39,022 nucleotides of DNA from a virus: positions 1 to 39,022 of IMG/VR virus record IMGVR_UViG_3300033156_000602. One strand, written 5' to 3'. The stretch's first letter is position 1. Each line of letters opens with the position of its first letter. The translations under genes and the position numbers were made by a program. Shown in pieces: positions 7,466 to 36,749 of this stretch. The notes under the pieces were generated by a model. It worked only from the letters and a program-made list of their open reading frames with translations, did no database searches and had not been told where the DNA came from.

Positions 7466-7717
7466 ATGAGAGGTTTTAATCTCTTAAAAGATATGGGAAA
7501 TTTTGTTGAGGGAGAAATAAAAAAACTGGGAGAAAAAGAAAGCTGGCAAGTATGCCATTATTGTCAATTTGAACTTCCCAATTGTATTAAAGATGGATAT
7601 GGATATTGGATATGCGAAGAGTGCTTAGCTAAGTGTCGGGAAGATTTGATTGACGCCGAGATTGAAGAAATATCCTTAAATGAAAATGAAAAAAACCCAA
7701 ATACAATATCAAATTAA
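7466..7717 (+). CDS. Small zinc-ribbon protein
   Basis: Encodes 83 residues with two CxxC pairs (C30/C33 in CHYC, C50/C53 in CEEC) separated by 16 residues, a typical zinc knuckle layout. The flanks are helical and charged. It may bind DNA, RNA or a host protein. It is tightly packed in the early operon and overlaps the next start by 38 bases. Confidence 0.65.
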   Translation: MRGFNLLKDMGNFVEGEIKKLGEKESWQVCHYCQFELPNCIKDGYGYWICEECLAKCREDLIDAEIEEISLNENEKNPNTISN

Positions 7718-8000
7718 GAAACTTGAAAAAGAACAAGCTAAAAATCCTTCATATCTTACAAGCGAGCTTAGAATAAAAAAAGAACGCTTGTATAAAATGT
7801 TGGATAAAATAAATATGAACCAATGGGAAATCAAACAAATTCTTGATTTAACCTCTAAGGGAGTTAATAGTGTTTTAATGCACAAGGAGGAGGTTAATCA
7901 AAAAGAATTAAAGGGGTTGGCAGAATTCTTGGTAGATTTATACTCGGGAATAATTGCCGACTTAAAAGGAGAAGATAATAAAGAAGATAAACCATTTTAA
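7680..8000 (+). CDS. Helical early protein with acidic C-terminal tip
   Basis: Encodes 106 residues, mainly helical and basic in the first two thirds. It ends in an acidic tip, GEDNKEDKPF, reminiscent of the DDDIPF-type tip of bacterial single-stranded DNA-binding proteins, although the body shows no OB fold. A second ATG at 7686 is possible. The next gene looks like an OB-fold protein, so the pair may handle single-stranded DNA together; this is inference. Confidence 0.55.
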   Translation: MKMKKTQIQYQIKKLEKEQAKNPSYLTSELRIKKERLYKMLDKINMNQWEIKQILDLTSKGVNSVLMHKEEVNQKELKGLAEFLVDLYSGIIADLKGEDNKEDKPF

Positions 8001-8002
8001 TT

Positions 8003-8335
8003 ATGGAGCAAGTAAAAATAACAAAAATTTATAGGAGCTTTAAGGATAAGGAAGGAAATCCTCTTAAAACAAAAGATGGAAGGAATTATGAAAGAGTAGC
8101 TATTAAATGCGAAGAATATGAAGATAGGTGGATTTCTGGCTTTGGCGAGGAAAGAAATAAGAATTGGGAAATTGGAGATGTGGTAGAAATAGAAATCTAC
8201 GAAAGCGATAAAAAAGACAAAGATGGAAATCCTTATTTGAATTTTAGAATGCCCTCTAATAGGGTTTCAAGAAGCGAATTTGACGCATTAGAGTCAAGAG
8301 TCAGTAATTTAGAAGCTCATATCTTAAAAAAATAA
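8003..8335 (+). CDS. OB-fold-like protein, possible ssDNA-binding protein
   Basis: Encodes 110 residues with alternating beta-strand segments (VKITKIYRSF, YERVAIKCEEYEDRWISGF, GDVVEIEIYES) and a Gly/Asp/Lys loop pattern seen in small phage single-stranded DNA-binding proteins, then a short helix (SEFDALESRVSNLEAHIL) that could oligomerise. It is a few genes upstream of the replisome organiser, consistent with replication. The call is by secondary-structure pattern, not a diagnostic motif. Confidence 0.5.
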   Translation: MEQVKITKIYRSFKDKEGNPLKTKDGRNYERVAIKCEEYEDRWISGFGEERNKNWEIGDVVEIEIYESDKKDKDGNPYLNFRMPSNRVSRSEFDALESRVSNLEAHILKK

Positions 8336-8338
8336 CTT

Positions 8339-8596
8339 ATGGCACTCATTAAAGTGGACAAGCTTTATAAGGGACAATATGTCTCAGTCAGAGATTATAT
8401 TGTCAAAGAGCATATAAAGAAACGCCAAGCTCTTAGAATAAAGCATAGTAATAAAATAATGACTATTCCATTTTCTAAACTAAAAGACGGAATAACCAAT
8501 AAAGAACTTTTTAAATCAAAATATAGTGGCACTTATTATCGGCTAATAGACTATCTATGGAAACCCGATAATAAAGACCAAATGAAGTTAATATAA
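8339..8596 (+). CDS. Hypothetical early protein
   Basis: Encodes 85 basic residues with predicted beta strands near the N-terminus (ALIKVDKLYKGQYVSVRDYIVKEH). Located three bases after the OB-fold-like gene and four bases before the replisome organiser, so it probably belongs to the replication gene group. No family recognised. Confidence 0.55.
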   Translation: MALIKVDKLYKGQYVSVRDYIVKEHIKKRQALRIKHSNKIMTIPFSKLKDGITNKELFKSKYSGTYYRLIDYLWKPDNKDQMKLI

Positions 8597-8600
8597 ATCA

Positions 8601-9371
8601 ATGGCACAAGGTAGATTTCTATTTAAAAGAATATCAATGAGCAAAAAAATGGCAAAATTGTCTAATGATACTGCCAGACTATTTTACACTTGGTTATTGG
8701 CTCATTTAGACAAAAATGGTTGCTTTTATGCCGACCCCAGAATACTAAGAAATATAGTGTTTCCTCGCTTAGATATATCAATCAAAGAAATAGAAAATTA
8801 TTTAGATGAATTAGAAGAAATCGGTTCTATTATTAGGTGGAAAAATGATGATGAAGAGTATCTTTGGTATCCTGATTTTAGAGAAAAACAGCCATATTTA
8901 CGACCAGAAAGAGAGGAAAGGGTGTCTGTTATTCCTGCTCCGCCAAGGGAATTACAGAAGAGTGTTGGAGTAGTGTTGGAGGAGTGTTGGAGTAGTGTTG
9001 GAGTAACTCCTGACCAACTCCCAAAGAAAAGGAAAAGGAAAAAGAAAAAGAATAATAAAAAGAAAAGGAAAAAGAAAAGCTTAAAACAACTTCAATCTCT
9101 TAGAGGAACTTTATTTGACGACGAGGACTTGCTTATACTAAAAACATTTTACAAATTGGGATATACTTGTCTTAATGGAGATGAAAAAGAATTGTCCGCT
9201 TGGTTAGAAGAAATTTCCAAAGAATTCCCCGACATCAATTTCTCGCAGGAAATTAAAAAGTTTGAAGAGTATTGGGAAGTTCAACCTCGCAAGCTAAAAA
9301 CTCATAAATTAGCTTGGCGTAATTGGTTAAATAACTGTAGAAAATATGCCAAAGATTCTCTTAACAGGTGA
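8601..9371 (+). CDS. Replisome organiser / replication initiation protein
   Basis: Encodes 256 residues. The N-terminal ~100 residues (MAQGRFLFKRISMSKKMAKL and the following helices) resemble the winged-helix DNA-binding domain of phage replisome organisers. The C-terminal part, ending with KTHKLAWRNWLNNCRKYAK, matches the layout of DnaD-like or helicase-loader-contacting domains. Between them is an extremely basic linker (about residues 140-160), encoded by a purine-rich tract directly after four 11-bp iterons. Gene order and the internal iterons suggest a lambda O-like initiator that recruits the host helicase and loader. No phage helicase was recognised. Confidence 0.72.
   Translation: MAQGRFLFKRISMSKKMAKLSNDTARLFYTWLLAHLDKNGCFYADPRILRNIVFPRLDISIKEIENYLDELEEIGSIIRWKNDDEEYLWYPDFREKQPYLRPEREERVSVIPAPPRELQKSVGVVLEECWSSVGVTPDQLPKKRKRKKKKNNKKKRKKKSLKQLQSLRGTLFDDEDLLILKTFYKLGYTCLNGDEKELSAWLEEISKEFPDINFSQEIKKFEEYWEVQPRKLKTHKLAWRNWLNNCRKYAKDSLNR
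8961..9079. other. Putative replication origin: four 11-bp iterons plus A-rich tract
   Basis: Four head-to-tail iterons AGTGTTGGAGT (the second ends GG) occupy 8961-9004, followed by the palindrome GGAGTAACTCC (9000-9010) and by a 57-base purine tract (9023-9079) with only two T. All lie inside the replisome organiser gene. Phage lambda has this arrangement: four iterons and an A+T-rich asymmetric tract inside gene O. The repeat unit is not a multiple of three, so protein repetition does not explain it. Confidence 0.65.
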
Positions 9372-11369: not shown

Positions 11370-12125
11370 ATGAAAAAAGAGAAGAAACTAAAATACCCAG
11401 ATGACTTTATCAACAAAATAATCTGTGGCGATTGCTTAGAAGTTATGAAAGAAATACCAGACAATTCGGTAGATTGTGTGATAACTTCACCGCCGTATAA
11501 TAAAACTGGTTTTAGGGGGCGTAGAGATAAATCAAAGGGAAAAGGAAGGTGGCGAGGTTCAGATATAAGATATGGAAATTATTTAGATGATAAAAATGAA
11601 AACGAATATAAGGTTTGGCAGGTGAAAATTTTAGATGAGTGTTATAGAATAATTAAAGATAGTGGTAGTATATTCTATAATCACAAGATCAGGAGGGCTA
11701 ATGGAATAGCAAGTCATCCTTTTGAATGGATACAAAAATGTAAAGCAATTTTTTATCAACAAATAATTTGGGACAGAGGAGGAAGTCCAGACCATAATGT
11801 TAATTATTTAATGCCGACAACTGAACTTATTTTTTGGCTTACAAAGAATAAACCAAAAGTATTTAAGAAGAAAGAAATAGGTGAAGTTTGGAGATTAAAC
11901 CCAGATAAAAATAATTTACACCCAGCTCCATTTCCTATAAATTTATGCGGTAGAATAATATCCTTAACTACTAACCCAAACGATCTAATCCTTGACCCCT
12001 TCCTCGGTTCTGGAACAACAGCGGTGGCAGCTAAGCACCTCAAAAGAAACTTTATAGGCATAGAAATAAACCCAGACTACTGCAAAATTGCCCACAAAAG
12101 ATTAGGGCAAGAGATACTACTCTAA
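11370..12125 (+). CDS. DNA methyltransferase (N4-cytosine or N6-adenine), solitary
   Basis: Encodes 251 residues. Catalytic motif IV, TSPPYN, is at 39-44 near the N-terminus, and the SAM-binding motif DPFLGSGTT is near residue 211, giving the beta-class order (catalytic before SAM-binding). SPPY is usual for N4-cytosine enzymes, but N6-adenine activity cannot be excluded. No partner restriction enzyme is adjacent, so it probably protects phage DNA from host restriction. It carries the leader module and the MKKEKK start seen in several neighbours. Confidence 0.88.
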   Translation: MKKEKKLKYPDDFINKIICGDCLEVMKEIPDNSVDCVITSPPYNKTGFRGRRDKSKGKGRWRGSDIRYGNYLDDKNENEYKVWQVKILDECYRIIKDSGSIFYNHKIRRANGIASHPFEWIQKCKAIFYQQIIWDRGGSPDHNVNYLMPTTELIFWLTKNKPKVFKKKEIGEVWRLNPDKNNLHPAPFPINLCGRIISLTTNPNDLILDPFLGSGTTAVAAKHLKRNFIGIEINPDYCKIAHKRLGQEILL

Positions 12126-23524: not shown

Positions 23525-24373
23525 ATGGCTTTTAGTCAAGATTATACAGTCTTCAAGCCCGAGGTTTGGTCGCCAAGGTTTAATTTCTTCTTGAAGCAAC
23601 GACTTCAGGCGAAGAAGTTTGCACAAGACTACTCTGATGGATATATTCCTGGAACGAACAAAGTTCATGTTCCCCATATTGGAGACAGCTTTTCAGCAAG
23701 CTCTATTTCGACCACTAATGGTGAAGTAAGTGCTACTGGAGTATCTGACACAAGAACTATCTTGACATTGGACAAGTGGGAAGGTGCTGCTTACGCAATG
23801 ACTAAGTATGAAGCGACAGTAACGATGAGTAGACCAAAACTTCAAGATGCTTATGCTCAGGCAATGTCTTACGCTCTTGCGAAGAAGGTTGACACTGATT
23901 TGTTAAGCAACATTAAGAATTTGGATAACTCAGTAGGAACTACAACTTCTACTTTGTTATCTACTCAGATTGAGAAAGCAATCAGTATTCAAGAATCTAA
24001 CTCCGCAAGCATTTATGACAGCGTGTTCTTGTTCAATCCAAAGACTTATTGGTTAGATATTGCTGCTATTCAGAAATACTACGATGCTTCACAATTAGGA
24101 CGACCAGGGGTAGTTGCCAAAGGTTATGATGCCAATCTGTATGGTGTTCCTGTGTTAATTAGCGAGAACACTCCGCAAAGTTCTAACGAAACTAACACTT
24201 GGAGTCACAATGCACTGATTCATAAATCGGCAATTATTTACGCGATGAGAGATGTTCAGATTGAAAATAAAGTTGGGGAGCACTTGAGAGTCAAACCTAC
24301 TGCTGATGTAATTTATGGGCACAAACTGATGAATTCGGGTAGAGGTGTTCAATTATATTCAAGCAGGTCATAA
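23525..24373 (+). CDS. Major capsid protein (HK97 fold)
   Basis: Encodes 282 residues. Features typical of HK97-fold coats: an N-terminal arm, a helical spine-like region (YEATVTMSRPKLQDAYAQAMSYALAKKVDTDLLSNI), and a C-terminal half with FLFNPKTYWLDIAAIQKYYDAS and GVPVLISENTP. It follows the scaffold by six bases, and a G+C-rich hairpin lies just after its stop, as expected for a highly expressed gene. Confidence 0.88.
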   Translation: MAFSQDYTVFKPEVWSPRFNFFLKQRLQAKKFAQDYSDGYIPGTNKVHVPHIGDSFSASSISTTNGEVSATGVSDTRTILTLDKWEGAAYAMTKYEATVTMSRPKLQDAYAQAMSYALAKKVDTDLLSNIKNLDNSVGTTTSTLLSTQIEKAISIQESNSASIYDSVFLFNPKTYWLDIAAIQKYYDASQLGRPGVVAKGYDANLYGVPVLISENTPQSSNETNTWSHNALIHKSAIIYAMRDVQIENKVGEHLRVKPTADVIYGHKLMNSGRGVQLYSSRS

Positions 24374-24390
24374 TAAATCCTTGTAGTTAA

Positions 24391-24424
24391 TGTCGGGTTG
24401 GCGGGGAAACCCGCCTTCCCGATA
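24391..24424 (+). promoter_or_regulatory. Stable hairpin with GAAA tetraloop after the capsid gene
   Basis: Inner stem GGCGGG (24400-24405) with CCCGCC (24410-24415) around a GAAA loop; outer stem TCGGG (24393-24397) with CCCGA (24418-24422); a TT/TT internal loop between. No T-run follows, so it is not a standard terminator. It abuts the ATG at 24424 and could protect capsid mRNA ends and repress the next gene. Confidence 0.65.
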
Positions 24425-24861
24425 TGAAAATGAAAGTAGTATTTGTTGATAAAAATTTTAAATGGGGATGTGGTCTTTCGTTTTCCAATAAACAATTAAG
24501 GGAAATGATGGGTTTTAAGACGAATGAATTGAAAGATTATTGGGAGAGGTTGAAAAAATACTGCGTGAAAGCATTAAAGTTAAAGCTTCTTAAAAACTTT
24601 AAAAGCTACGAAGAATATGAAAAAGCTTTAAAAAAATTCTGGAAAAAAGATATTAAAAAGTATAAAAATCTTCCTTGGAAAGAAATTAGAAAGAAAATAC
24701 CAGAATTCAAATCATCATTAAAAGAAAAAGATATTAGAGTGGTATTTATTGGAAAGAAAGAATTTAGTAGATTTTTGTTATTTAAAGAATGTGATTATAA
24801 AGAGCTTAAAAAGACAATTAAATACTATTTAAAAGTAATATTAAAAGTTAAGAATATATGA
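24424..24861 (+). CDS. Hypothetical lysine-rich protein
   Basis: Encodes 145 very basic residues (MKMKVVFVDKNFKWGCGLSF at the start), mostly helical, more A-rich than the neighbouring capsid gene. Its start codon touches a stable hairpin. The bases GAAAGTAGTATTT near its start recur at the start of the HNH gene (36182). First gene of the insert between capsid and tail genes; no family recognised. Possibly acquired separately. Confidence 0.55.
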   Translation: MKMKVVFVDKNFKWGCGLSFSNKQLREMMGFKTNELKDYWERLKKYCVKALKLKLLKNFKSYEEYEKALKKFWKKDIKKYKNLPWKEIRKKIPEFKSSLKEKDIRVVFIGKKEFSRFLLFKECDYKELKKTIKYYLKVILKVKNI

Positions 24862-25724
24862 AAATTGTTTATCTTGGAAACCATAATCCCTACGCATTAA
24901 ATACAGAAAAAAAAGTAGTAAAAGCATTTCATCAGTTAGGTCATACCGTTGACCAAGTTGATGAGAGAAACTGGAACATTTACGACCTAATAAAAAGAAC
25001 TAAGGTTTCAGATTTATTCCTGTTTCACAAGGGAATAAGGTTTGGAAAAAGTTTAAGGGACTTAGTAGACCTTTTATCGCACGTCCCTTGTAAAAAAGCA
25101 CTTTGGTATTTTGATTACGTCTGGCAAGAGAGAGAAAGGTTTATGGAGATAGTTGCTCCGCTTGTAGATTATGGATTTATGACAGACGGAAGTTTTGTTA
25201 AACGGAGCGGTCACGACAATCTAATAATCCTCAGGCAGGGCTGTGAAAAACAAAGAAAGGGAAAGAAAAAGAAAAAATACGAATATGATATTGTTTTTAC
25301 TGGCTCAATTTTTGGCTCAAGAGAGATTTTAGTTAATGGGCTTAAAAAGAATTATGGCGATAGGTTTAAGCACTTTGACAATGTATTCGGAAGAGAATTT
25401 TATGACTTATGTGCTTCGGCAAAAATAATGGTTGCTCCCAAATTCCCTTCAAATGATTTCTATTGGTCAAACAGAATTTACGAAACGCTGGGAGCTGGAG
25501 GATTTCTTATTCACCCCAAATGCGAAGGATTAAAAGAAGAATACGAAGAATACAAACATTTCGTTCCTTATGTAGATGGCGACCACTTAAAATATCTAAT
25601 TGATTACTATCTGGAACGCCCCAAAGAAAGAGAAAAGATAGCTAAGGCTGGCAGAGAACATACATTAAAAAACTATACTTATAAACATAGAGTTAAAGAA
25701 TTATGCTTCTGCTTAAATCGTTAA
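24858..25724 (+). CDS. Glycosyltransferase, CgeB/GT-B-like
   Basis: Encodes 288 residues. The C-terminal half carries a GT-B donor-binding pattern: DIVFTGSIFGSRE, CASAKIMVAPKFPSNDFYWSNRIYETLGAGGFLIHPKCEGL and a trailing REKIAKAGREHTLKNYTYKHRVKEL, as in CgeB-like glycosyltransferases. It probably transfers a sugar from a nucleotide-sugar donor. It opens the glycan cassette and is overlapped by the DUF2061-like gene. Confidence 0.85.
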   Translation: MKIVYLGNHNPYALNTEKKVVKAFHQLGHTVDQVDERNWNIYDLIKRTKVSDLFLFHKGIRFGKSLRDLVDLLSHVPCKKALWYFDYVWQERERFMEIVAPLVDYGFMTDGSFVKRSGHDNLIILRQGCEKQRKGKKKKKYEYDIVFTGSIFGSREILVNGLKKNYGDRFKHFDNVFGREFYDLCASAKIMVAPKFPSNDFYWSNRIYETLGAGGFLIHPKCEGLKEEYEEYKHFVPYVDGDHLKYLIDYYLERPKEREKIAKAGREHTLKNYTYKHRVKELCFCLNR

Positions 25725-25882
25725 TATATCGTATTTATTCAATTTTTCTAACCTTTTTTGTGGTGTTGTTGATTACTGGCGACGCTAATTTATCAGCAAT
25801 TATTAGTGGCTGGGTAGCATTGGCAAAAATAATAAGTTATTGGGTATTTGAGGTTTTATGGGAAAAAATAAACAAATTATAG
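25703..25882 (+). CDS. DUF2061-like small membrane protein
   Basis: Encodes 59 residues: KSLIYRIYSIFLTFFVVLLITGD, then NLSAIISGWVALAKIISYWVFEVLWEKI. Two membrane helices with YR, TGD, K and W/E at matching positions fit the DUF2061 family. It overlaps the glycosyltransferase by 22 bases and the sulfotransferase by 25. As I recall, DUF2061 proteins sit beside sulfate-activation genes in some genomes, so pairing with a sulfotransferase may be meaningful; this is inference. Confidence 0.6.
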   Translation: MLLLKSLIYRIYSIFLTFFVVLLITGDANLSAIISGWVALAKIISYWVFEVLWEKINKL

Positions 25883-26463
25883 TTCTTGGCAGGGGCAGAA
25901 GCGGAACTTCGTTGGTTGCTGGATTGCTTGACAAAATGGGCGTAGATATGGGGAAATCACGACCAAGTTCTCCTAATAATCCCAAAGGATATTACGAAGA
26001 CGAGAAGATGTTAAAAATCCTTGATAAATATATTCAACCAATAGAAAGCGAATATCGCAGAGACAAAGATTTTGAAAAAGACTTAAAAAAATACGCTAAA
26101 AAAGGATTATGGGGCTGGAAATCTCCAAACACCCTTTATCTCCTGCCGTCAGTTGTAAAAGTATTAGATAATCCCCATTTTGTTGTTTGTTATCGCAACT
26201 GGAAAAAACAAGCCAAATCAATTAAGTGGGCTTTTGACCCAAGTAGAACAGAAGAAGAAGCGGAACGAACTATTTGCGATTACTATAATCTATTAGAAAA
26301 ATTCTTCAAACTAAATGATTATCCAAGATTAGACGTTCAATTTGAAAACTTTTTTAACGCCCTACAAGATAATCAAATAAAAAAATTATGTGGTTTTGTC
26401 GGAGGACAATACAATCCAAACTTAAAGGATTTTATTGACCCCGACCAGCCGAAATTTAGATGA
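25858..26463 (+). CDS. Sulfotransferase-like protein
   Basis: Encodes 201 residues. The N-terminal IIVLGRGRSGTSLVAGLLDKMGVDMG is the 5'-phosphosulfate-binding loop region of sulfotransferases (P-loop GRGRSGTS, about 11-18), followed by WGWKSPNTLYLLP and FVVCYRNWKKQAKS, a second phosphosulfate-binding pattern. It may transfer sulfate from PAPS to a sugar or protein. A remnant of a related gene end lies at 27170-27253. The ATGA overlap with the next gene indicates coupling. Confidence 0.78.
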   Translation: MGKNKQIIVLGRGRSGTSLVAGLLDKMGVDMGKSRPSSPNNPKGYYEDEKMLKILDKYIQPIESEYRRDKDFEKDLKKYAKKGLWGWKSPNTLYLLPSVVKVLDNPHFVVCYRNWKKQAKSIKWAFDPSRTEEEAERTICDYYNLLEKFFKLNDYPRLDVQFENFFNALQDNQIKKLCGFVGGQYNPNLKDFIDPDQPKFR

Positions 26464-27170
26464 AAAGTTTGATAATTGGGAATGGAGAAGTTGGCAATTC
26501 ATTACACAGGGTTTTATCCGATAGCTATATAAGGGATATAAAAGATGAAATTATTTTTAACAATATAAAACTGGGCAGAACAGAGGGGATTTTGTCTTTC
26601 AAATGCCTGCATATCTGCTTTCCGTATAATAAGAACTTTGTTGAGCAGGTTAAAAAATATCAAAAAGCATATAAGCCGAAATACACAATTATACACTCAA
26701 CAGTTCCAGTGGGAACTTCTAAAAAATGCAATGCCTATCATTCTCCAGTCAGGGGCGTTCACCCAAACCTTGAAGAGGGATTAAAAACATTTGTTAAGTA
26801 TTTAGCTCCTAAAAGCAGATGTCTTAAAAGGTATTTTAGAAAGAACGGAATTAAAATTGAGTTTATGGAAAAACCAGAAGAAACCGAGTTTGCGAAGATT
26901 ATGTCAACAACATATTATGGCTGGAACATCGTATTTGAAAAAGAAATGTATCGTCTTTGTCAGGAGCATAATTTGAACTTCAACAAAGTTTATGAGGATT
27001 GGAATAAAACATACAACTCTGGCTATGCGGCGCTTGGAAAACAAAATGTAATCAGGCCAGTGTTAAAGCAAATAAATGGAAAAATTGGCGGACATTGCGT
27101 TGTTCAAAATCTAAAATTATTTAAAACGAAAATAACTAATTTCATTAACAAATATAATCAAGAATTATAA
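26460..27170 (+). CDS. Nucleotide-sugar dehydrogenase-like protein (shortened)
   Basis: Encodes 236 residues, about half the usual length of UDP-glucose or UDP-ManNAc dehydrogenases. Visible: GNGEVG NAD-binding loop (7-12), HSTVPVGT (79-86), ETEFAKIMSTTYYGWNIVFEKE (E143, K146) and GKIGGHCVV with the cysteine at 213. The order matches NDP-sugar dehydrogenases, but spacing is reduced, so it may be a compact oxidoreductase or act on another substrate. It is flanked by the sulfotransferase gene and by a remnant of a similar gene end. Confidence 0.7.
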   Translation: MKSLIIGNGEVGNSLHRVLSDSYIRDIKDEIIFNNIKLGRTEGILSFKCLHICFPYNKNFVEQVKKYQKAYKPKYTIIHSTVPVGTSKKCNAYHSPVRGVHPNLEEGLKTFVKYLAPKSRCLKRYFRKNGIKIEFMEKPEETEFAKIMSTTYYGWNIVFEKEMYRLCQEHNLNFNKVYEDWNKTYNSGYAALGKQNVIRPVLKQINGKIGGHCVVQNLKLFKTKITNFINKYNQEL

Positions 27171-27253
27171 AAAAATTATGCGGTTTTGTTGGGGGGCGAT
27201 ATTCTTCTGAATTAAAGGATTTTATTGACCCCGACCAGCCGAAGTTTTTATGA
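27170..27253 (+). pseudogene. Remnant of a second sulfotransferase 3' end
   Basis: This frame reads KKLCGFVGGRYSSELKDFID followed by PDQPKFL and a stop, closely matching the last residues of the sulfotransferase at 25858-26463 (KKLCGFVGGQYNPNLKDFID, PDQPKFR). Similarity starts abruptly at the dehydrogenase stop. Several substitutions suggest a diverged paralogue whose body was lost or replaced by the dehydrogenase gene, not a recent duplication. Confidence 0.7.
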
Positions 27254-27474
27254 ATAAATTGTTTGTAGCACAGCTTAATAAGGGCTTGCCATCTTATCAA
27301 CCTTTACCTCCTGGAACTTATGTGATAGCAGCAAGGAATAGGCATACGGCAGAATATTATTTATTTGGAATAAATACTCCCAAGAGTGGTTTCAAACTTT
27401 GCGAAATTCCTAAGGATTATCTTAAAACAAATCAAGTCAATTCATTAGATTCTTTACTTAATAAATTAAAATAA
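27250..27474 (+). CDS. Hypothetical small protein in glycan cassette
   Basis: Encodes 74 residues (MNKLFVAQLNKGLPSYQPLP at the start). The ATG overlaps the stop of the sulfotransferase remnant. No family recognised. Confidence 0.5.
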   Translation: MNKLFVAQLNKGLPSYQPLPPGTYVIAARNRHTAEYYLFGINTPKSGFKLCEIPKDYLKTNQVNSLDSLLNKLK

Positions 27475-27478
27475 AAAT

Positions 27479-28514
27479 ATGAAAATAGGAATGATTGTAA
27501 GAGCAGATGTTACTGGCTTGGGAATGCATACCCAAGACTGGGTAAATAATCTGCCAATAGATAAAGTTTTAGTAGTTTGGGGACAAAAAGAATTTTATCC
27601 CAATATTTATGCCCACAAAGAAATGTTGGTTGCCAAAATGGGACAGCCCTCTCTAAAAGAGATTGATTGGCTACTAAAAGATATAGATATAGTCCTAACA
27701 ATAGAAACTCCATATAATTGGTCTTTAATAAGCAAAGCAAAAGAAAAGGGCGTGAAATCTGTTATAGCCCCCAATTACGAATGGATACCAAAAATAGTTC
27801 CAGCACAACCAGATTTATGGCTTTGCTATAATTAATCCGCTTACTTCCGAGTATGTTCCTTTTCCAAACAAAGTTTATGTTCCCCAGCCAATAGATTTAC
27901 AACAATTCAAGTTCAAGAAACGCAAGAAGGCAAAAATATTTCTATTCAATAATGGCAATGGCGGGGTTCACGGCAGAAATTCTGTAAATGAGTTTATACA
28001 AGCAATTCCATTTATCAAATCAGATATAAAGATAATAATCAATTCTCAAGTTCCTGTAGAGCCAATAAACGATAAAAGGGTTCAAATAAATGTTGGCGAC
28101 CAGCCAATAGGTGAAATTTGGAAAGAAGGCGATGTATTTGTTCATATAAGAAAATTTGGTGCTAATTCGCTTCCAATAAACGAAGCAATGGCACAAGGTA
28201 TGCCGATTATAGGAATGAACAGAAAGCCAGAAAACCTTTTAATTCCTGAAAAATTCTTAATCCAGCCCAGCGGAATAAGACCTATTGAATGTAGGGAAGA
28301 TGTAAGACCAGTTAAGGCGTGCGTTATAGACCCATTAAAAGTAGCAGAAAAGATAGATGAAATCGCTAATAATGATATTTCTGAAGATTCTCTAAAAATC
28401 AGAAAACAAGCAGAAGCGTTAAGTTGGGATAAATTAAGAAAAGATTTTATAAAAGTATTTGAAGATTTATGCTCATCACCTTCGGACAACCAAAAATTAG
28501 CAATCGAGAAATAG
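27479..28514 (+). pseudogene. Glycosyltransferase interrupted by a frameshift
   Basis: The first part (27479-27835, 118 residues, MKIGMIVRADVTGLGMHTQD at the start) stops at TAA just after WLCYN. The next frame is open from before this point to 28514 and continues sensibly: NPLTSEYVPFPNKVYVPQPI, then a GT-B C-terminal pattern (GDQPIGEIWKEGDVFVHIRK and ANSLPINEAMAQGMPIIG). One extra T near 27831 would explain it. Joined, it is about 345 residues, the size of a family 4-like glycosyltransferase. It could be a real lesion, a recoding site or a sequence error. Confidence 0.75.
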
Positions 28515-29560
28515 AGGAAGTTGTTGACACCTTGAAATCGGGCTGGATAGGAACAGGAAAGAAGGTTCGGCAGTTTGAAGAAGCATTTGCCAACTATAAA
28601 GGAGTTGACGAAGCACTTGCCACTAATTCCTGCACCTCCGCTCTTCACTTGGCATTAGACGATTTAGAACTTTATTCTACTGACGAAGTAATAGTTCCCA
28701 CGATGACTTTTAGCGCCACTGCCCAAGCGGTTCTTTATACGGGGGCAAAGCTTGTATTATGCGACGTTGATAAACACGGAAACATAGACCCAACAGCTCT
28801 TTGGAAAAAAATAACCAACAGAACGAGGGCGGTAATCGTTGTTCATTACACGGGAAGACCAGTGGAAATGAATAGCATACTTCAACTGGCTCGTAAATAT
28901 AATCTGGCAGTGATAGAAGATTGTGCCCACGCTGTTGAAGGAGAATATAAAGGGAAACCATTGGGAACAATAGGAGATTATGGCTGTTTCAGTTTTTATG
29001 CCACTAAAAATATAACCACCGCAGAGGGAGGAATGCTCATTTCAAAAAAACCCTTGAATGAAATAAGAATTAAATCTTTACACGGACAGGATAAAAAAGC
29101 ATACGAAAGACAGGGAGATTATAAAATTGTGGCTCTTGGCTATAAATATAATATGACAGATATTCAGGCGTCGCTTGGCATTCATCAGTTAGCAAGGATT
29201 GAAGAAAACTGGCAGAGAAGAAAAGAAATCTGGGATAGATACAATCAGGCATTTGAACAATTAGAAGTAGAAACCCCAGAATATATAGATAAACACGGAC
29301 TACATCTTTATACCTTACTGGTTAAAGACAGGGATAGATTTAGAGATTATCTTGCTAAGAAAGGAATTAGCACAGGAATTCACTACAAGGCACTCCATTT
29401 ACACCCTTTTTACAGGAGAATGGGTTTTCAAAGAAAAGATTTTCCAAACGCCGAAAGCATATCTTATAGAACCGTATCGCTTCCATTTTCGCCCTATTTA
29501 ACAGATGACGAAGTAAATTACATAATAAAAATAGTATATGAAATATGTTTGAAGAAATAG
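28469..29560 (+). CDS. DegT/DnrJ/EryC1-type sugar aminotransferase
   Basis: Encodes 363 residues with the fold-I PLP aminotransferase signature: SCTSALHLAL, VIVPTMTFSATAQAVL, VIEDCAHAVEGEYKGKPLG (D151) and GCFSFYATKNITTAEGGML with the PLP lysine at K180. The family transfers amino groups to keto-sugar nucleotides. Full length and intact motifs suggest activity. It overlaps the disrupted glycosyltransferase frame by 46 bases and the methyltransferase by 16. It may make an amino sugar for cell-surface or virion glycans. Confidence 0.92.
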   Translation: MLITFGQPKISNREIEEVVDTLKSGWIGTGKKVRQFEEAFANYKGVDEALATNSCTSALHLALDDLELYSTDEVIVPTMTFSATAQAVLYTGAKLVLCDVDKHGNIDPTALWKKITNRTRAVIVVHYTGRPVEMNSILQLARKYNLAVIEDCAHAVEGEYKGKPLGTIGDYGCFSFYATKNITTAEGGMLISKKPLNEIRIKSLHGQDKKAYERQGDYKIVALGYKYNMTDIQASLGIHQLARIEENWQRRKEIWDRYNQAFEQLEVETPEYIDKHGLHLYTLLVKDRDRFRDYLAKKGISTGIHYKALHLHPFYRRMGFQRKDFPNAESISYRTVSLPFSPYLTDDEVNYIIKIVYEICLKK

Positions 29561-30057
29561 ACCAATTAGCAAAAGAACGATTGCCAAACGGGACAAAAGA
29601 AATGGGAGTTATTCTTCACTTCCTTGCCCGTTTAATGAAAGCCGAAACCACTCTTGAAATAGGAGTAGAAGAAGGATATGTAAGCACATTATTAGCCCAA
29701 GCGTCCAAAAAGCATTATGCGATTGAAGAAAAAGAAGACAGGTGCGATAGGTTCAGGGACTATCTTGACAAAAAGGGCATAAAAAATGTTGAGATAATCA
29801 ATAAAAATTCATTAGAGGTTGATTGGGATAAAGAAGTAGATTTAATTTTTCAAGATTCATACCACAGAAACCCAGAACTTTTAGAAGAGATTAAAAAATA
29901 CGCTCCTTATGTTAAAAAAGATGGTTTCTTCTGTTGCCACGATTATTATTGGAAACCAGGAGACGTAAAAGAAGTAGTAGATAATTACTTTAAAGAGGGT
30001 TGGGAGGTAATAAATATCCCATACTACGAGGGCTTAACAATATGCAGAAAGCTATAG
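29545..30057 (+). CDS. Class I SAM-dependent methyltransferase
   Basis: Encodes 170 residues. SAM-binding motif ETTLEIGVEEGYVSTLLAQA (about 32-51), an acidic second strand (HYAIEEKEDRCDRF), and VDLIFQDSYHRNPELLEEIKKYAPYVKKDGFFCCHDYYW, the pattern of small sugar or small-molecule methyltransferases (Methyltransf_24-like). Likely methylates a sugar or similar group made by its neighbours. Confidence 0.82.
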   Translation: MFEEIDQLAKERLPNGTKEMGVILHFLARLMKAETTLEIGVEEGYVSTLLAQASKKHYAIEEKEDRCDRFRDYLDKKGIKNVEIINKNSLEVDWDKEVDLIFQDSYHRNPELLEEIKKYAPYVKKDGFFCCHDYYWKPGDVKEVVDNYFKEGWEVINIPYYEGLTICRKL

Positions 30058-30701
30058 CTATCAAAGCAGATAAAAACGTAGAAGAGATGTATCAGCTAAC
30101 GCTTCCCTATATCAGAAACTACGCTAAAAGGGTTGGTGCTAAACTAATTCGCTTATCCAAAAACAAGGGGCTTCATTATCACTATAAGATTTTACAACTA
30201 TACAAACTATTTAAAAAATACGATAGAATTCTGGTTCTTGACGCCGATGTTCTGATAAGAAAGGACTGCCCAGATTTATTTGATTGCGTTTTAGAAGATG
30301 AAATTGGCACGGTGTTAGAAGATAAAGGTTCTCGGTTAGAAGACAGGCGAAATAGAATAAAAGCTATTCAAGAGGAATTTGGAGATATTGGCTGGCGAGA
30401 AGGATACATAAACTCTGGCGTTATCTTGTTCTCAAAATGCCATAGAAATCTGTTTAAAAAAAGAAATCTCTGGCTAAACAACGGATACGACGATGTATAT
30501 TTGGGCTACTGGATACACAAGCTGGGATATAAGATATTTGAACTTCCCTACAAGCTAAATCATATGAGAATGTTTTCCGAACCTTGGAACGGTTCGCCCA
30601 GTAAGTTTGACAGCTGGATTATTCACGAAGCAGGGCAACAAAATCAAATAGTAGCCCTTAAAAGCGATATAGCAAAATGGGAAGTTGAAGGAAAGATATG
30701 A
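30042..30701 (+). CDS. Glycosyltransferase family 8-like
   Basis: Encodes 219 residues from the ATG at 30042; an earlier in-frame ATG at 30000 would overlap the methyltransferase by 58 bases. Contains ILVLDADVLIRKD (DxD metal site, D67-D69), YINSGVILFSK, and an acceptor-side region with DVYLGYWIHKLGYKIFELP. This is the layout of GT8-type GT-A retaining glycosyltransferases. Overlaps the next gene by four bases. Confidence 0.78.
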   Translation: MQKAIAIKADKNVEEMYQLTLPYIRNYAKRVGAKLIRLSKNKGLHYHYKILQLYKLFKKYDRILVLDADVLIRKDCPDLFDCVLEDEIGTVLEDKGSRLEDRRNRIKAIQEEFGDIGWREGYINSGVILFSKCHRNLFKKRNLWLNNGYDDVYLGYWIHKLGYKIFELPYKLNHMRMFSEPWNGSPSKFDSWIIHEAGQQNQIVALKSDIAKWEVEGKI

Positions 30702-31246
30702 TTTACACATTCATCCCCACATTTCCAAAAGAAAAAGATTTAGGTTGGGCTTATAATCATTTTATGGACTTAATTCCGAATGACGATGACTGGGGATGTT
30801 TGGTTGACCACGACACAATTTTTACAACTAAAAACTGGATGTATCAAATGGAAGATATAATAAAGAAACACCCAGAATATGATTGCTTTGTGGCAACTAC
30901 TAATAGAATTGGCTGCGACTATCAACAGGTTGCCGACCTAAGACATAATCACGACATTCAAGAACATATAAAACTCGGTCATAAAATACAAAAGGAACAT
31001 TACTCTGATGTTATCAACGTTACTGGCAGAATTGCGTTTAGCGGATTTCTAATGCTGGTTAAAAAAAGTGCTTGGAATAAAGTAAAGTTTAGAGAGGGCG
31101 GAGAAAAAATGGCTGGCATAGACAACCACTTTCATAGAGATTTGAGAAATAGGGGCTTTAGAATAGGTTTAATGAAGGGTATTTATCTCTATCATTTATA
31201 TATGACAGATAAAGAAATCAATGATTTACTCGGCAATAACAAATAA
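30698..31246 (+). CDS. Glycosyltransferase family 2-like (GT-A)
   Basis: Encodes 182 residues. MIYTFIPTFPKEKDLGWAYN at the start, GCLVDHDTIFTTKNW with DHD (37-39) at the metal-binding position, VTGRIAFSGFLMLVKKSAW and GIDNHFHRDLRNRGFRIGLM, matching small GT2 proteins encoded in phages and glycan loci. Overlaps the next gene by 26 bases. Confidence 0.75.
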   Translation: MIYTFIPTFPKEKDLGWAYNHFMDLIPNDDDWGCLVDHDTIFTTKNWMYQMEDIIKKHPEYDCFVATTNRIGCDYQQVADLRHNHDIQEHIKLGHKIQKEHYSDVINVTGRIAFSGFLMLVKKSAWNKVKFREGGEKMAGIDNHFHRDLRNRGFRIGLMKGIYLYHLYMTDKEINDLLGNNK

Positions 31247-31775
31247 CAAAGATAAGCCCAGAAAGGACATAAATTGTTTTGGTTCTTATAATCGGTTCAA
31301 AGAGCCAGTATTAAACGCTAAGATTTATAAAGTTCTTTCCCACCTGTTTATAGATGACGAATATAGTATTTGGGTTGACGGAAATGTATTTCTTAAAAAG
31401 CCAGAAGAAGAGTTCATTAAACTTTTAGGAGATAGCGATATAGCGGTTTTCAAACACCCTTGGCATAAAAATTTATTTGAAGAAGCGAATTATTGCATTG
31501 AACATAGTATTGGAGATAAGAAAACCATTGAAAAACAAATTCGCAGATATAAAGATTTTTCAAACGATGAGCTTGGCTGGTGCGGTTTAATAATCAGGAG
31601 GCATACAGAAAAAATTAAAAGATTAAACGAGCAATGGTGGGCTGAAATATGTAGAGGTTCGGTTAGAGACCAAATCAGCTTTCCTTATGTATTTAGTGGG
31701 GTGGTAAAATATCTGCCAAAACTTAAAAAGTTTTATGATAACGAATACTATGAGAGAAGGAAGCACAATTTTTAA
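31221..31775 (+). CDS. Glycosyltransferase-like protein (DUF616/TOD1-type)
   Basis: Encodes 184 residues. NAKIYKVLSHLFIDDEYSIW followed by VDGNVFLKKP (DGN at 53-55), IAVFKHPWHKNLFEEANYCI and the end region WWAEICRGSVRDQISFPYVF are typical of the DUF616/TOD1-MUCI70 glycosyltransferase-like family, where W(V/I)DGN is the metal-site equivalent. Sugar and acceptor unknown. Overlaps genes on both sides, indicating a tightly coupled cassette. Confidence 0.75.
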   Translation: MIYSAITNNKDKPRKDINCFGSYNRFKEPVLNAKIYKVLSHLFIDDEYSIWVDGNVFLKKPEEEFIKLLGDSDIAVFKHPWHKNLFEEANYCIEHSIGDKKTIEKQIRRYKDFSNDELGWCGLIIRRHTEKIKRLNEQWWAEICRGSVRDQISFPYVFSGVVKYLPKLKKFYDNEYYERRKHNF

Positions 31776-32439
31776 TGCAATACAAATAGAGACAATTCAG
31801 GGTTGCACCTTGAGGTGTCCGTGGTGTCCCAATAAAGATATTGAATATTCCTTTAATAAAATGACCAAAGAGCTTTATTATAAGATTATTGATGAGTTAG
31901 CTGGAATGAATTTTACAGGCAGGGTATCACCCTACTTAATGAACGAATCTTTATTAGATGACCGATTAGAAGATTTTATAGCATATACGAAAAAGAAACT
32001 TCCAGATTGCCATATAATGATAAACACCAATGGCACATTGTTAGATGAAAAGCGTGAAAAGAGCTTGCGAGAAGCAGGATTAGATGAAATAAGGGTTAGT
32101 TGCTATTCAGACGAAGTTGAAAACAAGGTATCTAAAATGGGCGTAAAAATAAATAAACTCCAACAAATTAAAGCAAGTTTTTATAATAGAGGGGGCAATG
32201 TAGATGTTGGGGGCGAAAAGAAGGGCGGATATTGCCCAAAACCATTTAATCAAATGTATGTTCGCTGGACAGGTCAAGCAGTTCTTTGCTGTTCAGATTA
32301 TCATTTTGAAGCAGTAATGGGCGATGTAAACAAACAAAGTTTAATGGATATTTGGAATAATTCTAAATATAACAAATATCGTCAACATCTTAAAAGGGGA
32401 AAAAGAGATTTACCACTTTGTAATAAATGTAATGCTTAA
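31750..32439 (+). CDS. Radical SAM enzyme with SPASM-like C-terminus
   Basis: Encodes 229 residues from the ATG at 31750 (31735 also possible). The iron-sulfur motif GCTLRCPWC (C19, C23, C26) is the CxxxCxxC of radical SAM enzymes. The C-terminus has CPKPFNQMYVRWTGQAVLCC, GDVNKQSLMDIWNN and LCNKCNA, cysteines suggestive of an auxiliary-cluster SPASM-like domain. It is shorter than most relatives. It may modify a sugar or peptide made by the cassette. Confidence 0.85.
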   Translation: MREGSTIFNAIQIETIQGCTLRCPWCPNKDIEYSFNKMTKELYYKIIDELAGMNFTGRVSPYLMNESLLDDRLEDFIAYTKKKLPDCHIMINTNGTLLDEKREKSLREAGLDEIRVSCYSDEVENKVSKMGVKINKLQQIKASFYNRGGNVDVGGEKKGGYCPKPFNQMYVRWTGQAVLCCSDYHFEAVMGDVNKQSLMDIWNNSKYNKYRQHLKRGKRDLPLCNKCNA

Positions 32440-32442
32440 ATT

Positions 32443-33195
32443 ATGAGAAAAGGAATTTATATTTCTTGGCTCAATCAGGGCGAGATAAGAGTAGAAAACG
32501 CCTATTTAATGACAAAATGGGCAAAAGAAGGAAAATACTTCACTCATTTAGGAGAAGATTTTATTCATAGTTTTCCTTCTGACAAACCAATCATCAACAA
32601 TAGAAATAAAATAGTAAAGGATTTTCTTAAAAAACCAGAATACGAGTATCTTTTAATGATTGATGACACCATCATTCCGCCAGAAAATCTTTTAGATTTA
32701 TCGCTTCTTGATAAAGATGTTATTACGCCAGTAATGTTCGCTCACAGGCAAAACGCAATAGTCCCTCTGGTTCTTAAAAAAAGAGAAGGGCATAAAGATT
32801 ATGAGATATTAAATGTTAATGGAGACGAGGGGCTGGTGGAGGTAGATAGCGTGGGAACTGGCTGTATAATGATACACCGCAGGGTTCTTGAACACCCCAA
32901 AATGAGATTTCCTTTCAAAAATGTTTGGAATAGAGATGGCGAAAGAATACTTGGTCAGGACTTAAACTTTGCTAAAAGAGCCAAAGAGTGTGGTTTTAAA
33001 CTATGGGTTCATTTGTCTTTCATTTGCGACCACTGGACGCCAATGAGCTTAAAAAACCTTTACAGAACCCTAACTTATCAAGAAATAAAAGGAGGTGCTT
33101 TAGATACAAGACTGGGATTTAAACATATAGCAGACAATTCACCTCTAAAAAGATATAATTATATGAAAGGTCGGTTAGACAAAGAAGTTAAATAA
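32443..33195 (+). CDS. Glycosyltransferase-like GT-A protein
   Basis: Encodes 250 residues. YLLMIDDTIIPPENLLDLSL has IDDT (73-76) as metal-binding motif, then VDSVGTGCIMIHRRVLEHPK and GQDLNFAKRAKECGFKLWVH followed by the histidine of CDHWTP, all standard for GT2-like GT-A enzymes found in phage genomes. Last gene of the glycan cassette; the head-tail adaptor gene starts at the next base. Confidence 0.75.
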   Translation: MRKGIYISWLNQGEIRVENAYLMTKWAKEGKYFTHLGEDFIHSFPSDKPIINNRNKIVKDFLKKPEYEYLLMIDDTIIPPENLLDLSLLDKDVITPVMFAHRQNAIVPLVLKKREGHKDYEILNVNGDEGLVEVDSVGTGCIMIHRRVLEHPKMRFPFKNVWNRDGERILGQDLNFAKRAKECGFKLWVHLSFICDHWTPMSLKNLYRTLTYQEIKGGALDTRLGFKHIADNSPLKRYNYMKGRLDKEVK

Positions 33196-33921
33196 ATGAA
33201 GTTCTCAGATACTTCGTCCCAAAGTGGGCTAATTCAGGACTGCGAAACTCTATTAGGATTTACCGATGGATACATATCGGGAAATTCAAATAGATTAAAT
33301 AGATTTACAAACTTAATAAACGCTTGGTATAGAAAAGCGGATACTTGGCTATGGGAAGCTGTGGGAACTTGGGAGTTTGATGACTCCAATAGAACAGACC
33401 TCCCAATTGCTACAACCGATTTGGTAGCTGACCAAAGAGATTACGAATTGCCCTCAACTGCTCGCAAAATAGATAGAATAGAGGTAAAAGATAGCGATGG
33501 TGATTGGTCGCCTGTTTATCCAATGGATAAAAGCGAAATCCCAACTACCGCAATGGAAGAGTTTGAGGAAACCAATGGACTGCCAGAATACTATGATATG
33601 GTAGGGCGGTCTATTCTTTTATATCCCAAACCCTCTGCCGATGATGTAACCCTGACCGATGGATTAAAACTTTATTGTTCACGGGATATTGTAGCGTTCA
33701 GTTCCTCTGCCACAACCAGAGAGCCAGGATTTGACAATCATTTTCACAGAATATGTTCTCTTGGTGCTGCTTATGATTATGCTGCCTCAAAAGGATTAAG
33801 GAAAACCCCTATTCTAAAAAAAGAATTAGAAGAATTAAAACAAGAATTACAAACTTTCTATGGAACACGCCATCGGGATTTCAAAACCCGTTTAGATGTC
33901 CAAGAAGATTCAAATATATAA
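33196..33921 (+). CDS. Head-tail adaptor / connector-like protein
   Basis: Encodes 241 residues. Features include FTNLINAWYRKADTWLWEAV, QRDYELPSTARKIDRIEVKD, GLPEYYDMVGRSILLYPKP and a helical C-terminus with GAAYDYAASKGL. This pattern matches phage adaptor proteins that attach below the portal in short-tailed phages. Location after the glycan insert restarts the structural module. The stop overlaps the second copy of the 15-base late motif. Confidence 0.65.
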   Translation: MKFSDTSSQSGLIQDCETLLGFTDGYISGNSNRLNRFTNLINAWYRKADTWLWEAVGTWEFDDSNRTDLPIATTDLVADQRDYELPSTARKIDRIEVKDSDGDWSPVYPMDKSEIPTTAMEEFEETNGLPEYYDMVGRSILLYPKPSADDVTLTDGLKLYCSRDIVAFSSSATTREPGFDNHFHRICSLGAAYDYAASKGLRKTPILKKELEELKQELQTFYGTRHRDFKTRLDVQEDSNI

Positions 33922-34546: not shown

Positions 34547-36178
34547 ATGATAGAAAAATTACTCAAAAACAAACCAGCTAAAGAACGAGCTAAAATTAAA
34601 GCTACTGAAATAGCTAAATTTGACCACAGAGGTAAGTTTACCGTTGGAGATATTAAAGTAGAGATTTTGAGCTTAGAGAAAATTCAGGTTGGACATCTTC
34701 ACGGAGTTGAAATATATGCTCGTGCTTGGAAAAACGGAAAACCGCTTGGTTGGGGAAAAGACGGCTCTGTTGAGATAGAAAGATTTAGAATTTTTAATCC
34801 TCCTGTTTTAGTTGATGACCCAAATGGAGATATTGTCAGAGAATTCGTTGACCCTGATACCAAAAAGACAAAACAGCGAAAGCTCCGAGAAGACCCGATA
34901 CAGGCGATACGAAAAAGTTTAGCTCATACTATAAAAGTTTCTGGGAAAGAAAATACTAAAGTTATTAAAGGAAAAATCGGGCATACCACTGATACTTTTT
35001 ATCCCGATGCTGACCCAGAAAGCACATCAATGGATGGTTGGCAAGGAGAGGGAAATGCAGATGGTCTTAGTTGGTCAGAATTGCACGACGAAAGCGGTGG
35101 AGGAACGCCAATGTCTGGAGCTTGGGCTGACCAACCAGAGTTATATATTGGTTATCAAGAAGATTATATATCAAATAAATGGACTCAATTATACAGGTCA
35201 ATGATTCTTTTTGATACCTCTGCTCTTCCAGATAATGCGAATATAAGTTCAGCAGTAATTTCAATTTATGGTAAAGAAATTTTAAATGATGTTGGTAATT
35301 CTATTGGTAGTTGTATTTATTCCGCAAATCCCGCTTCTAATACAGACCTATCAACAGCTGATTTTGACCAATATGGAACAACGGAACTTGCAAATACAAT
35401 AGCTGTTGGAGACTTTAATGATTCTGCTTATAACGACCACACCCTTAATGCATCGGGAATAGCTGCAATTTCTAAAACAGGAGTATCTAAATTTGGTTGG
35501 AGAGAGTCAACTTATGATGCTCCAGATAATACACCTCCTTGGCAGGGAAATAATTGCGGAACATATCCTTGTTATGACCGATTTCGTGCTTATTCTGCTG
35601 ATGAAACAGGGACATCTAAAGACCCTAAGTTGGTGGTGACTTATACGCCCATCCAAACCCTCTACGCCACAGTAACAGAAACCATATCTTTAACAGACAC
35701 ATTGGAAAAAAAAGCAAACTTTTCTAAAACTATTCAAGAAAGCATAAGCACGCAAGACGCTCTTTCAAAGCAAGCCAGTATGAGTGTAACCAAGTTAGAA
35801 ACCCTTAGCTTAACCGACGCTTTATCAACTATTAAAGCTAAAATTGTAAATATATTAGACACATTTCATTTAACAGACACTTTACAAAAAACAACCAAAT
35901 TCACCAAAACCATAACAGAAAACATTAGCTTAACGGATACATTGATTTCTGTTAAAACATTTTTCGCAACCATATCGGAAACCCTACATTTATCAGACGC
36001 AGTCAGCAGAACAGCAAAGTTCGCCAAAACAATAAGCGAAACTCTACATTTAAGTGATACCCTAACCATTACTGGAAAGTTCTGGAACTGGATAACGAAA
36101 AATGTGAGCAGTTGGACAAACAGGTCGAAGCACACGAGCAGTTGGACATTTAAAGACAAGAGCCAACCGCCTAACTAA
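34547..36178 (+). CDS. Tail fibre or spike protein with beta-sandwich domain and 20-residue repeats
   Basis: Encodes 543 residues in three parts: an N-terminal ~145-residue domain, probably for virion attachment; a middle domain (about 150-370) of the DNRLRE-type carbohydrate-binding-like beta fold (YRSMILFDTSALPDNANISS, DPKLVVTYTP); and seven tandem ~20-residue repeats at about 373-512 with the core ETxSLTDTLxK. The end repeats SSWT twice. The layout suits a receptor-binding fibre. The C-terminal repeats may form a fibrous stalk. Confidence 0.65.
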   Translation: MIEKLLKNKPAKERAKIKATEIAKFDHRGKFTVGDIKVEILSLEKIQVGHLHGVEIYARAWKNGKPLGWGKDGSVEIERFRIFNPPVLVDDPNGDIVREFVDPDTKKTKQRKLREDPIQAIRKSLAHTIKVSGKENTKVIKGKIGHTTDTFYPDADPESTSMDGWQGEGNADGLSWSELHDESGGGTPMSGAWADQPELYIGYQEDYISNKWTQLYRSMILFDTSALPDNANISSAVISIYGKEILNDVGNSIGSCIYSANPASNTDLSTADFDQYGTTELANTIAVGDFNDSAYNDHTLNASGIAAISKTGVSKFGWRESTYDAPDNTPPWQGNNCGTYPCYDRFRAYSADETGTSKDPKLVVTYTPIQTLYATVTETISLTDTLEKKANFSKTIQESISTQDALSKQASMSVTKLETLSLTDALSTIKAKIVNILDTFHLTDTLQKTTKFTKTITENISLTDTLISVKTFFATISETLHLSDAVSRTAKFAKTISETLHLSDTLTITGKFWNWITKNVSSWTNRSKHTSSWTFKDKSQPPN

Positions 36179-36179
36179 T

Positions 36180-36749
36180 TTGAAAGTAGTATTTAGAAAT
36201 AAAAAAGGGCAATTTGTTAAAGGAAAGCCTCTTCCAAAAGAAATAATAGAAAAAAGAAAAAAAACGATGATAGGAAAAAAATATCCTGAAGAGATATATC
36301 CTAATAAAGGAATGAGGGAGCGGAAACATAGCGAAGAAACAAAAAGAAAGATGAGTGAAAGTCATAAAGGTATATCTGTAAATAAAGGAAGAAAGCTTAC
36401 AAAAGAAGAAAGACAGAAAATAAGCGAAAGAATGAGGGGGAGTAAAAATCATTTTTGGAAAGGGGGCGTAACCCCTGAAAACCTTAGAATTAGAGCAAGA
36501 ATAGAATATCGCTTATGGAGAGAGGCGGTATATGCAAGAGATAATTTTACTTGTCAAAAATGTAAAGAAAAAGGAAGTAAGGAGCTTAGGGCACATCATA
36601 TATTAAATTTTGCTACTCATCTAAATATAAGATTTGCAATTGATAATGGAATTACTTTATGTAAAAATTGTCATCAAGAATTTCATAAAATTTATGGTAA
36701 TAGAAATAATACAAGAGAACAATTAGAAGAATTTTTAAAAGCACAATGA
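36180..36749 (+). CDS. HNH homing endonuclease with NUMOD3-like motifs
   Basis: Encodes 189 residues from a TTG start. Two NUMOD3-like DNA-binding repeats (HSEETKRKMSESHKG and GRKLTKEERQKISERMRG) precede an HNH domain: C125/C128, HH (139-140), N156, C161/C164 and H165/H169. Free-standing homing endonucleases spread by cutting alleles that lack them. It sits between two structural genes, is more A-rich than they are, and shares the opening MKVVF with the gene behind it. Confidence 0.88.
   Translation: MKVVFRNKKGQFVKGKPLPKEIIEKRKKTMIGKKYPEEIYPNKGMRERKHSEETKRKMSESHKGISVNKGRKLTKEERQKISERMRGSKNHFWKGGVTPENLRIRARIEYRLWREAVYARDNFTCQKCKEKGSKELRAHHILNFATHLNIRFAIDNGITLCKNCHQEFHKIYGNRNNTREQLEEFLKAQ

Follow-up and report, generated by a model that had tools for sequence, protein, structure and literature searches.

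The cassette between the capsid and adaptor genes

We analysed a 39,022-base IMG/VR virus record, below called the window, from an uncultured tailed virus. The region of interest is a cassette of sugar-modifying genes between the gene of the major capsid protein (MCP) and that of an SU10-like adaptor, in the gene order terminase, portal, scaffold, MCP, cassette, adaptor, tail-like genes. The genes at 36746 and 2-1300 resemble neighbours downstream of the adaptor in related viruses, which makes it probable that the record is nearly complete and circularly permuted. The left border of the interval, or slot, is the MCP gene (23525-24373; phrog_267 major head protein, 1e-15; 96% identical in the related contig L002), and the right border is the adaptor gene (33196-33921; SU10_adaptor PF24175, 1.5e-11). 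These and all cassette features lie on the plus strand. The slot contains 13 open reading frames (ORFs), 12 of them of recognisable type, and an extra ORF of 145 aa (24424-24861) between MCP and the first glycosyltransferase (GT) gene, which is absent in L002. An earlier note on this DNA, made from the letters alone, described an eleven-gene cassette. Its own list names twelve genes; an ORF of 74 aa (27250-27474) with no significant family match is the thirteenth, and the 145-aa ORF comes in addition. All enzyme genes named there were recovered in place by Pfam, PHROGs and structure matches, and the near-continuous overlaps of 4-46 bp were counted at ten junctions.

The six glycosyltransferases of that list are borne out by family matches and a structural model. 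The first, GT_A (24858-25724; CgeB-like, Glyco_trans_1_2, PF13524, 1e-23), has the 145-aa ORF exactly at its start codon. The group-1 glycosyltransferase GT_B (27479-28514) is frameshifted near 27830 into the pieces 27479-27835 and 27843-28514, whereas relatives have a single intact ORF of 306-342 aa; the frameshift may be either biological or an assembly error. The GT8-like gene (Glyco_transf_8, PF01501, 7e-9), whose start is most likely 30042 (30042-30701), retains the DxD motif and has a 59% identical homologue in the related contig L081. It is followed by GT_C (30698-31246; phage glycosyltransferase, phrog_14179, 2e-34), with relatives in Escherichia and Cellulophaga phages, by a TOD1/MUCI70-like gene (31221-31775; PF04765, 3e-15), and, further downstream, by GT_D (32443-33195). 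In L021, a different phage, a 402-aa fusion of TOD1-like and GT_C-like halves (7679-8887) lies between head genes and protease/MCP. The window cassette has the most recognised GT genes among the slots of its lineage.

Between and around these genes lie other enzymes. A sulfotransferase gene (25858-26463; Sulfotransfer_3, PF13469, 4e-8) has the motif GRGRSGTS and is 53% identical to its homologue in L081. The gene at 28469-29560 encodes an aminotransferase of the DegT/ArnB/perosamine synthase type (PF01041, 3e-112) with the pyridoxal-phosphate lysine motif; it overlaps a gene for an S-adenosylmethionine (SAM) dependent methyltransferase (29545-30057; Methyltransf_24, 2e-10). A short radical SAM/SPASM enzyme (31735-32439; Radical_SAM 6e-13, SPASM 4e-17) has the CxxxCxxC motif; no relative of it was confirmed by direct scan of viral contigs. 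A DUF2061 membrane protein of 59 aa (25703-25882; PF09834, 1.1e-6; hydropathy 2.14) is encoded directly behind GT_A. The catalytic motifs are kept in all enzymes checked, that is, the sulfotransferase, DegT, GT8, GT_C, GT_D, methyltransferase, radical SAM and UGD-like proteins.

The last of these, a short UGD-like dehydrogenase (26460-27170), matches the UDPG_MGDP_dh central domain at 3e-5, just below the cut-off, and its fold was confirmed by a model (pLDDT 92) that matches UGD 7kws with E 1e-9. The profile of the family reaches UDP-ManNAc and UDP-glucose dehydrogenases. Its 39 aligned members are 32-56% identical to the window protein, and the NAD motif GxGxxG and residues Ser80, Thr86, Glu143, Lys146 and Cys213 are invariant in all 39. 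The fold, the NAD-binding motif and the catalytic lysine and cysteine are thus shared with the classical UDP-glucose and UDP-ManNAc dehydrogenases. However, the N-domain is shortened and the C-terminal UDP-binding domain is missing: 36 of the 39 members end 8-46 residues past the cysteine, the window protein 23 residues past it. Judging from these alignments, the protein looks catalytic, yet probably cannot bind a nucleotide sugar in the usual way. No match was found in the annotated phage collection, and therefore the family was reached through viral contigs. Scans made with different patterns gave 47 viral contigs compared with only five loci in the genome collection. Two of these five loci, in Clostridia (L071) and Falkowbacteria (L073) metagenome-assembled genomes (MAGs), contain genes from this virus lineage and are perhaps mis-binned; one is a WOR-3 MAG contig (L072), and two are in a Bathyarchaeota chromosome. 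These counts support a mainly viral family; they do not support one that is only viral. Short homologues by fold occur in Campylobacter phage F379 and Microbacterium phage Fireman.

The model of GT_D (pLDDT 83) matches glycosyltransferase structures, and the sequence has weak Anp1 and phrog GT matches. The best Foldseek match is STIV A197 (PDB 2c0n; E 3e-8, TM 0.52/0.66, 18% identity), followed by LH3, COLGALT1, Mnn9, mimivirus R699 and GalNAc-T. The structures that the model resembles are mostly protein-glycosylating enzymes. The GT_D family has invariant aspartate and histidine residues.

There are some hints to the predicted sugar pathway. DegT falls among the C4 aminotransferases, with ArnB and perosamine synthetases as PDB relatives; it reaches none of the NCBIfam equivalog cut-offs, and thus its substrate was left without assignment. 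DegT and a GMD-like dehydratase occur together in nine relatives. The cassette of one of them, L027, combines gmd, an NCBIfam equivalog above the cut-off, with formyltransferase and DegT genes, a set that fits a perosamine-type pathway, namely the established route to N-formyl-perosamine. In the window DegT is present, and no GMD match or other 4,6-dehydratase was recognised, thus the perosamine pair of GMD and aminotransferase is incomplete there and the 4-keto sugar would come from the host. No polyprenyl-phosphate transferase, lipid-carrier enzyme, flippase, polymerase or ligase was recognised in family scans; the glycosyltransferases are soluble by hydropathy, and no membrane enzymes are predicted apart from the tiny DUF2061 ORF.

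The slot in related viruses

Relatives were gathered with the terminase, the UGD-like protein, the adaptor and MCP as scan queries and by profile annotation, with separate profiles for GMD/epimerase and HNH proteins in the slot. Related virus contigs yielded 47 distinct pairs of MCP and adaptor genes, with slots of 48-10,475 bp (median 4.2 kb), including one doubtful slot, L120, that contains a portal gene. At least one recognised glycosyltransferase gene was found in 39 of the 47 slots, and four slots are empty. The comparison with related phages that the earlier note proposed thus shows a recurring cassette position, and long cassettes are common in this lineage, contrary to the statement that so complete a set is rare in phages. 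Among 95 proteins encoded in the slots of relatives, a single one exceeded the hydropathy limit set for a membrane segment.

Several distant clades have one or two GT_D-type genes in the slot or none (L107, L117-L119, L122; L121, L124, L130, L131). Among the distant capsid calls, those in L121, L124, L118, L099 and L130 have independent PHROGs support; PHROGs gave no such support for L107 and L131. The occurrence of slots with zero, one or two genes of this type suggests that the slot grew by gene addition to an originally short junction. The series from zero to one to many genes outlines a possible growth path of the locus, with GT_D as the candidate first enzyme.

In L002, the only close relative, GT_A directly follows MCP and the contig ends inside this gene, so that GT_A is the only cassette gene to which the selection figure applies. 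The dN/dS ratio is 0.079 (dS 0.39, 246 codons), compared with 0.056 for MCP and 0.097 for portal. Purifying selection thus acts on GT_A, which speaks against its decay. The possibility, raised earlier, that close relatives would show these genes decaying everywhere does not agree with this figure or with the intact GT_B of the relatives.

Nevertheless, local turnover is real: GT_B is frameshifted, a remnant of a sulfotransferase gene is present, and DegT is truncated in L081. The L081 contig and the window are colinear: GT_A, sulfotransferase, GT_B, an aminotransferase fragment, methyltransferase and GT8 are followed, after other genes, by GT_D, whereas the UGD-like, GT_C, TOD1 and radical SAM genes are extras of the window; DegT of L081 is both truncated and divergent. 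The remnant is an 88-bp copy of the sulfotransferase 3' end directly behind the UGD-like gene (27167-27254; 83% identical to 26377-26464). Entry of the UGD-like gene by recombination at the end of a sulfotransferase gene would leave such a scar. HNH genes were observed in or near the slot in L026 (8798-9253, minus strand), L037 (13559-14977) and the window (36180-36749). The gene in L026 is located between the UGD-like and adaptor genes and is missing from the near-identical L027, which suggests that homing contributes to slot turnover.

Some related observations concern other loci. In another phage group (L007; L017, 4794-9267), CgeB-like glycosyltransferase and methyltransferase-like genes lie between portal-side genes and protease/MCP. 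GT2-like cassette proteins with a C-terminal C2H2-like zinc finger are encoded in L005 (7427-8548) and L024 (4675-5682). Downstream of the adaptor, the window encodes a protein (34547-36178) with about six imperfect Ser/Thr-rich repeats of the type TETISLTDTL, with homologues in L027, L031 and L081.

Structured RNA behind the capsid gene

The region from the MCP stop codon to the first cassette start contains a GC-rich interrupted hairpin (24390-24425; -29.2 kcal/mol, z -5.5). It pairs into the ATG at 24424 and is identical in L002. At the same position, relatives have a differing sequence that often folds into the same compact H-type pseudoknot: helices of 6-15 bp cross in a span of about 40-64 nt, which an outer helix encloses in many cases. 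Candidate pseudoknots were found at 23 of 35 core MCP ends and 4 of 20 distant MCP ends, compared with 4 of 501 other gene ends, and the 27 elements contain 26 distinct P2 sequences. With an earlier version of the scanner, 20 of 36 MCP ends were positive, compared with 2 of 511 control ends and 2 of 2160 shuffles; the median folding-energy z was -3.6 at MCP ends and -0.6 in the control. In a scan of about 2.0 Mb of loci, 22 of the 36 strict matches fell into the approximately 8 kb behind MCP genes. Because tuning of the scanner followed the first examples, the exact rates are optimistic; the enrichment is far larger than this effect.

Examples are located at 4032-4073 in L024, 693-738 in L026, approximately 2031-2078 in L031, 5887-5933 in L035 and 3585-3630 in L053, with others behind MCP in L081, L082, L085, L098 and L102. 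The pseudoknot is likewise present in L105, which has no recognised cassette gene, and in the one-glycosyltransferase slots of L122 and L099. Hence the element goes with the capsid end and not with the cassette. Its 3' end often lies no more than about 15 nt from the next start codon. It would likely protect the end of the capsid mRNA or damp downstream translation. Stop-codon readthrough or frameshifting was considered and rejected as a general role, since reading frames past the MCP stop soon close, with a median open length of only 9-13 codons.

Eight sources were compared with Rfam, and none gave a match at the gathering level. In a search of two single stretches with E up to 5, that of L082 gave no match and that of the window gave two weak sub-threshold matches. 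A literature search found no relevant paper on a pseudoknot behind a capsid gene. Kept despite sequence change, the element may represent a new RNA family.

Probable glycosylation of virion proteins and alternative explanations

We interpret the region as an island for the glycosylation of virion proteins, set in a fixed capsid-adaptor slot with high gene turnover, and assign to this reading a probability of about 0.7. Phage glycosyltransferase genes lie within a virion operon, and this association is kept across relatives. The site between virion genes, the soluble glycosyltransferases, the absence of recognised lipid-linked machinery and the likeness of GT_D to protein glycosyltransferases together make this function the most likely one. 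The earlier note had seen a coherent sugar-modification set among virion genes, which holds, and had offered two roles for it; the evidence favours glycans on the virion over late remodelling of the host surface.

The cassette would probably be transcribed late, together with the head genes. Soluble enzymes would then build a modified sugar chain and attach it to a virion protein in the cytoplasm. DegT would aminate a 4-keto nucleotide sugar, probably supplied by the host; a GT_D-type enzyme would transfer the first sugar onto the protein; GT_A, GT8, GT_C and the TOD1-like enzyme would extend the chain; and the sulfotransferase, methyltransferase, UGD-like and radical SAM enzymes would modify its sugars. 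Candidate acceptors are MCP, the adaptor and the repeat protein at 34547. The glycan could benefit the virus through shielding or adsorption.

Several points weigh against this interpretation. Single enzymes may have host-directed roles. The Foldseek matches of GT_D are partial, with TM about 0.5 of the query, and selection is measurable for one cassette gene alone. The GT_B frameshift and the adjoining sulfotransferase remnant mean that a part of the window copy may be non-working.

The cassette might instead change the surface of the host at a late stage of infection, so as to block superinfection or keep progeny off debris. Enzymes of the DegT, sulfotransferase and nucleotide-sugar kinds are characteristic of clusters for surface polysaccharides, genes for GMD, formyltransferase and an HldE-like nucleotidyltransferase occur in relatives, and DUF2061 is a membrane protein. 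However, the lipid-linked assembly and export enzymes listed above were not recognised, the glycosyltransferases are soluble by hydropathy, and the slot is inside the head module in the relatives seen. Neither a flippase nor a bactoprenol-linked glucosyltransferase family of the gtr-type serotype-conversion cluster was found. We consider this explanation unlikely. It is still less probable that the cassette is mostly decaying cargo with little present function, moved by recombination and homing endonucleases. The frameshift, the remnant, the state of DegT in L081 and the HNH genes would agree with such decay, but GT_A is under purifying selection, the catalytic motifs are intact in the enzymes checked, with the UGD-like residues invariant, and long overlapping operons are kept in many relatives. 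Hypermodification of phage DNA with sugars seems the most improbable of these explanations. Phage glycosyltransferases can act on DNA (Pyle et al. 2024, as cited in PMC12619734), and the window has a DNA methylase gene (11370-12125). On the other hand, capsid and adaptor genes border the slot, the model of GT_D is similar to protein glycosyltransferases, and no hydroxymethylating or base-priming gene was found among the larger window proteins scanned, with small ORFs scanned only partly and the record maybe incomplete.

Returning to virion-protein glycosylation, a more speculative extension is that the lineage, large and mostly uncultured, uses the capsid-adaptor junction as a dedicated glycan-swapping slot. 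It would have started from a protein glycosyltransferase similar to STIV A197 and grown to self-made sulfated, aminated and methylated glycans, with the help of a mainly viral UGD variant that lacks the UDP-binding domain; at its entrance, an undescribed RNA class, the H-type pseudoknot, would separate abundant capsid expression from low enzyme expression. Two parts are less expected, namely the family of truncated dehydrogenases and the pseudoknot at the capsid end. Only a few groups of phages are known to glycosylate their virions. Here, across a lineage from many metagenomes, the sugar genes next to the capsid gene vary like a serotype locus, so that the surface chemistry of the particles may evolve fast in uncultured viruses.

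Some known systems are similar in part. STIV A197 shares the fold of GT_D, but STIV is not a tailed virus, and at 18% identity the likeness is at the fold level only. In Corndog, a cluster O mycobacteriophage, the interval from portal to protease holds an O-methyltransferase gene and several glycosyltransferase genes, which the authors of that work propose to modify the capsid (PMC4351075). The common feature is such a set in a virion operon. However, Corndog has four genes at the portal-protease position, whereas the window lineage has up to about a dozen sugar genes at the capsid-adaptor position and adds aminotransferase, sulfotransferase, UGD-like and radical SAM genes; the virus lineages are unrelated. 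Glycans on the capsids and tails of mycobacteriophages were described by Freeman et al. 2023, as cited in PMC11256854 and PMC12619734. The cluster F1 mycobacteriophages Che8 and Rita also encode their glycosyltransferases, and according to PMC11256854, capsid glycans are demonstrated there. In the F1 phage Maravista, the glycosyltransferase genes are near the genome 3' end and not adjacent to the capsid gene, with no mention of nucleotide-sugar enzymes. Finally, mimivirus and chloroviruses have their own 4-aminotransferase, dehydratase, UGD and glycosyltransferases for virus-made glycans (PMC9614988). This is analogous to the window lineage in that the virus supplies its own sugar-pathway enzymes, but those are giant viruses of eukaryotes, whereas here a tailed virus of about 39 kb carries its sugar genes in one compact positional island.

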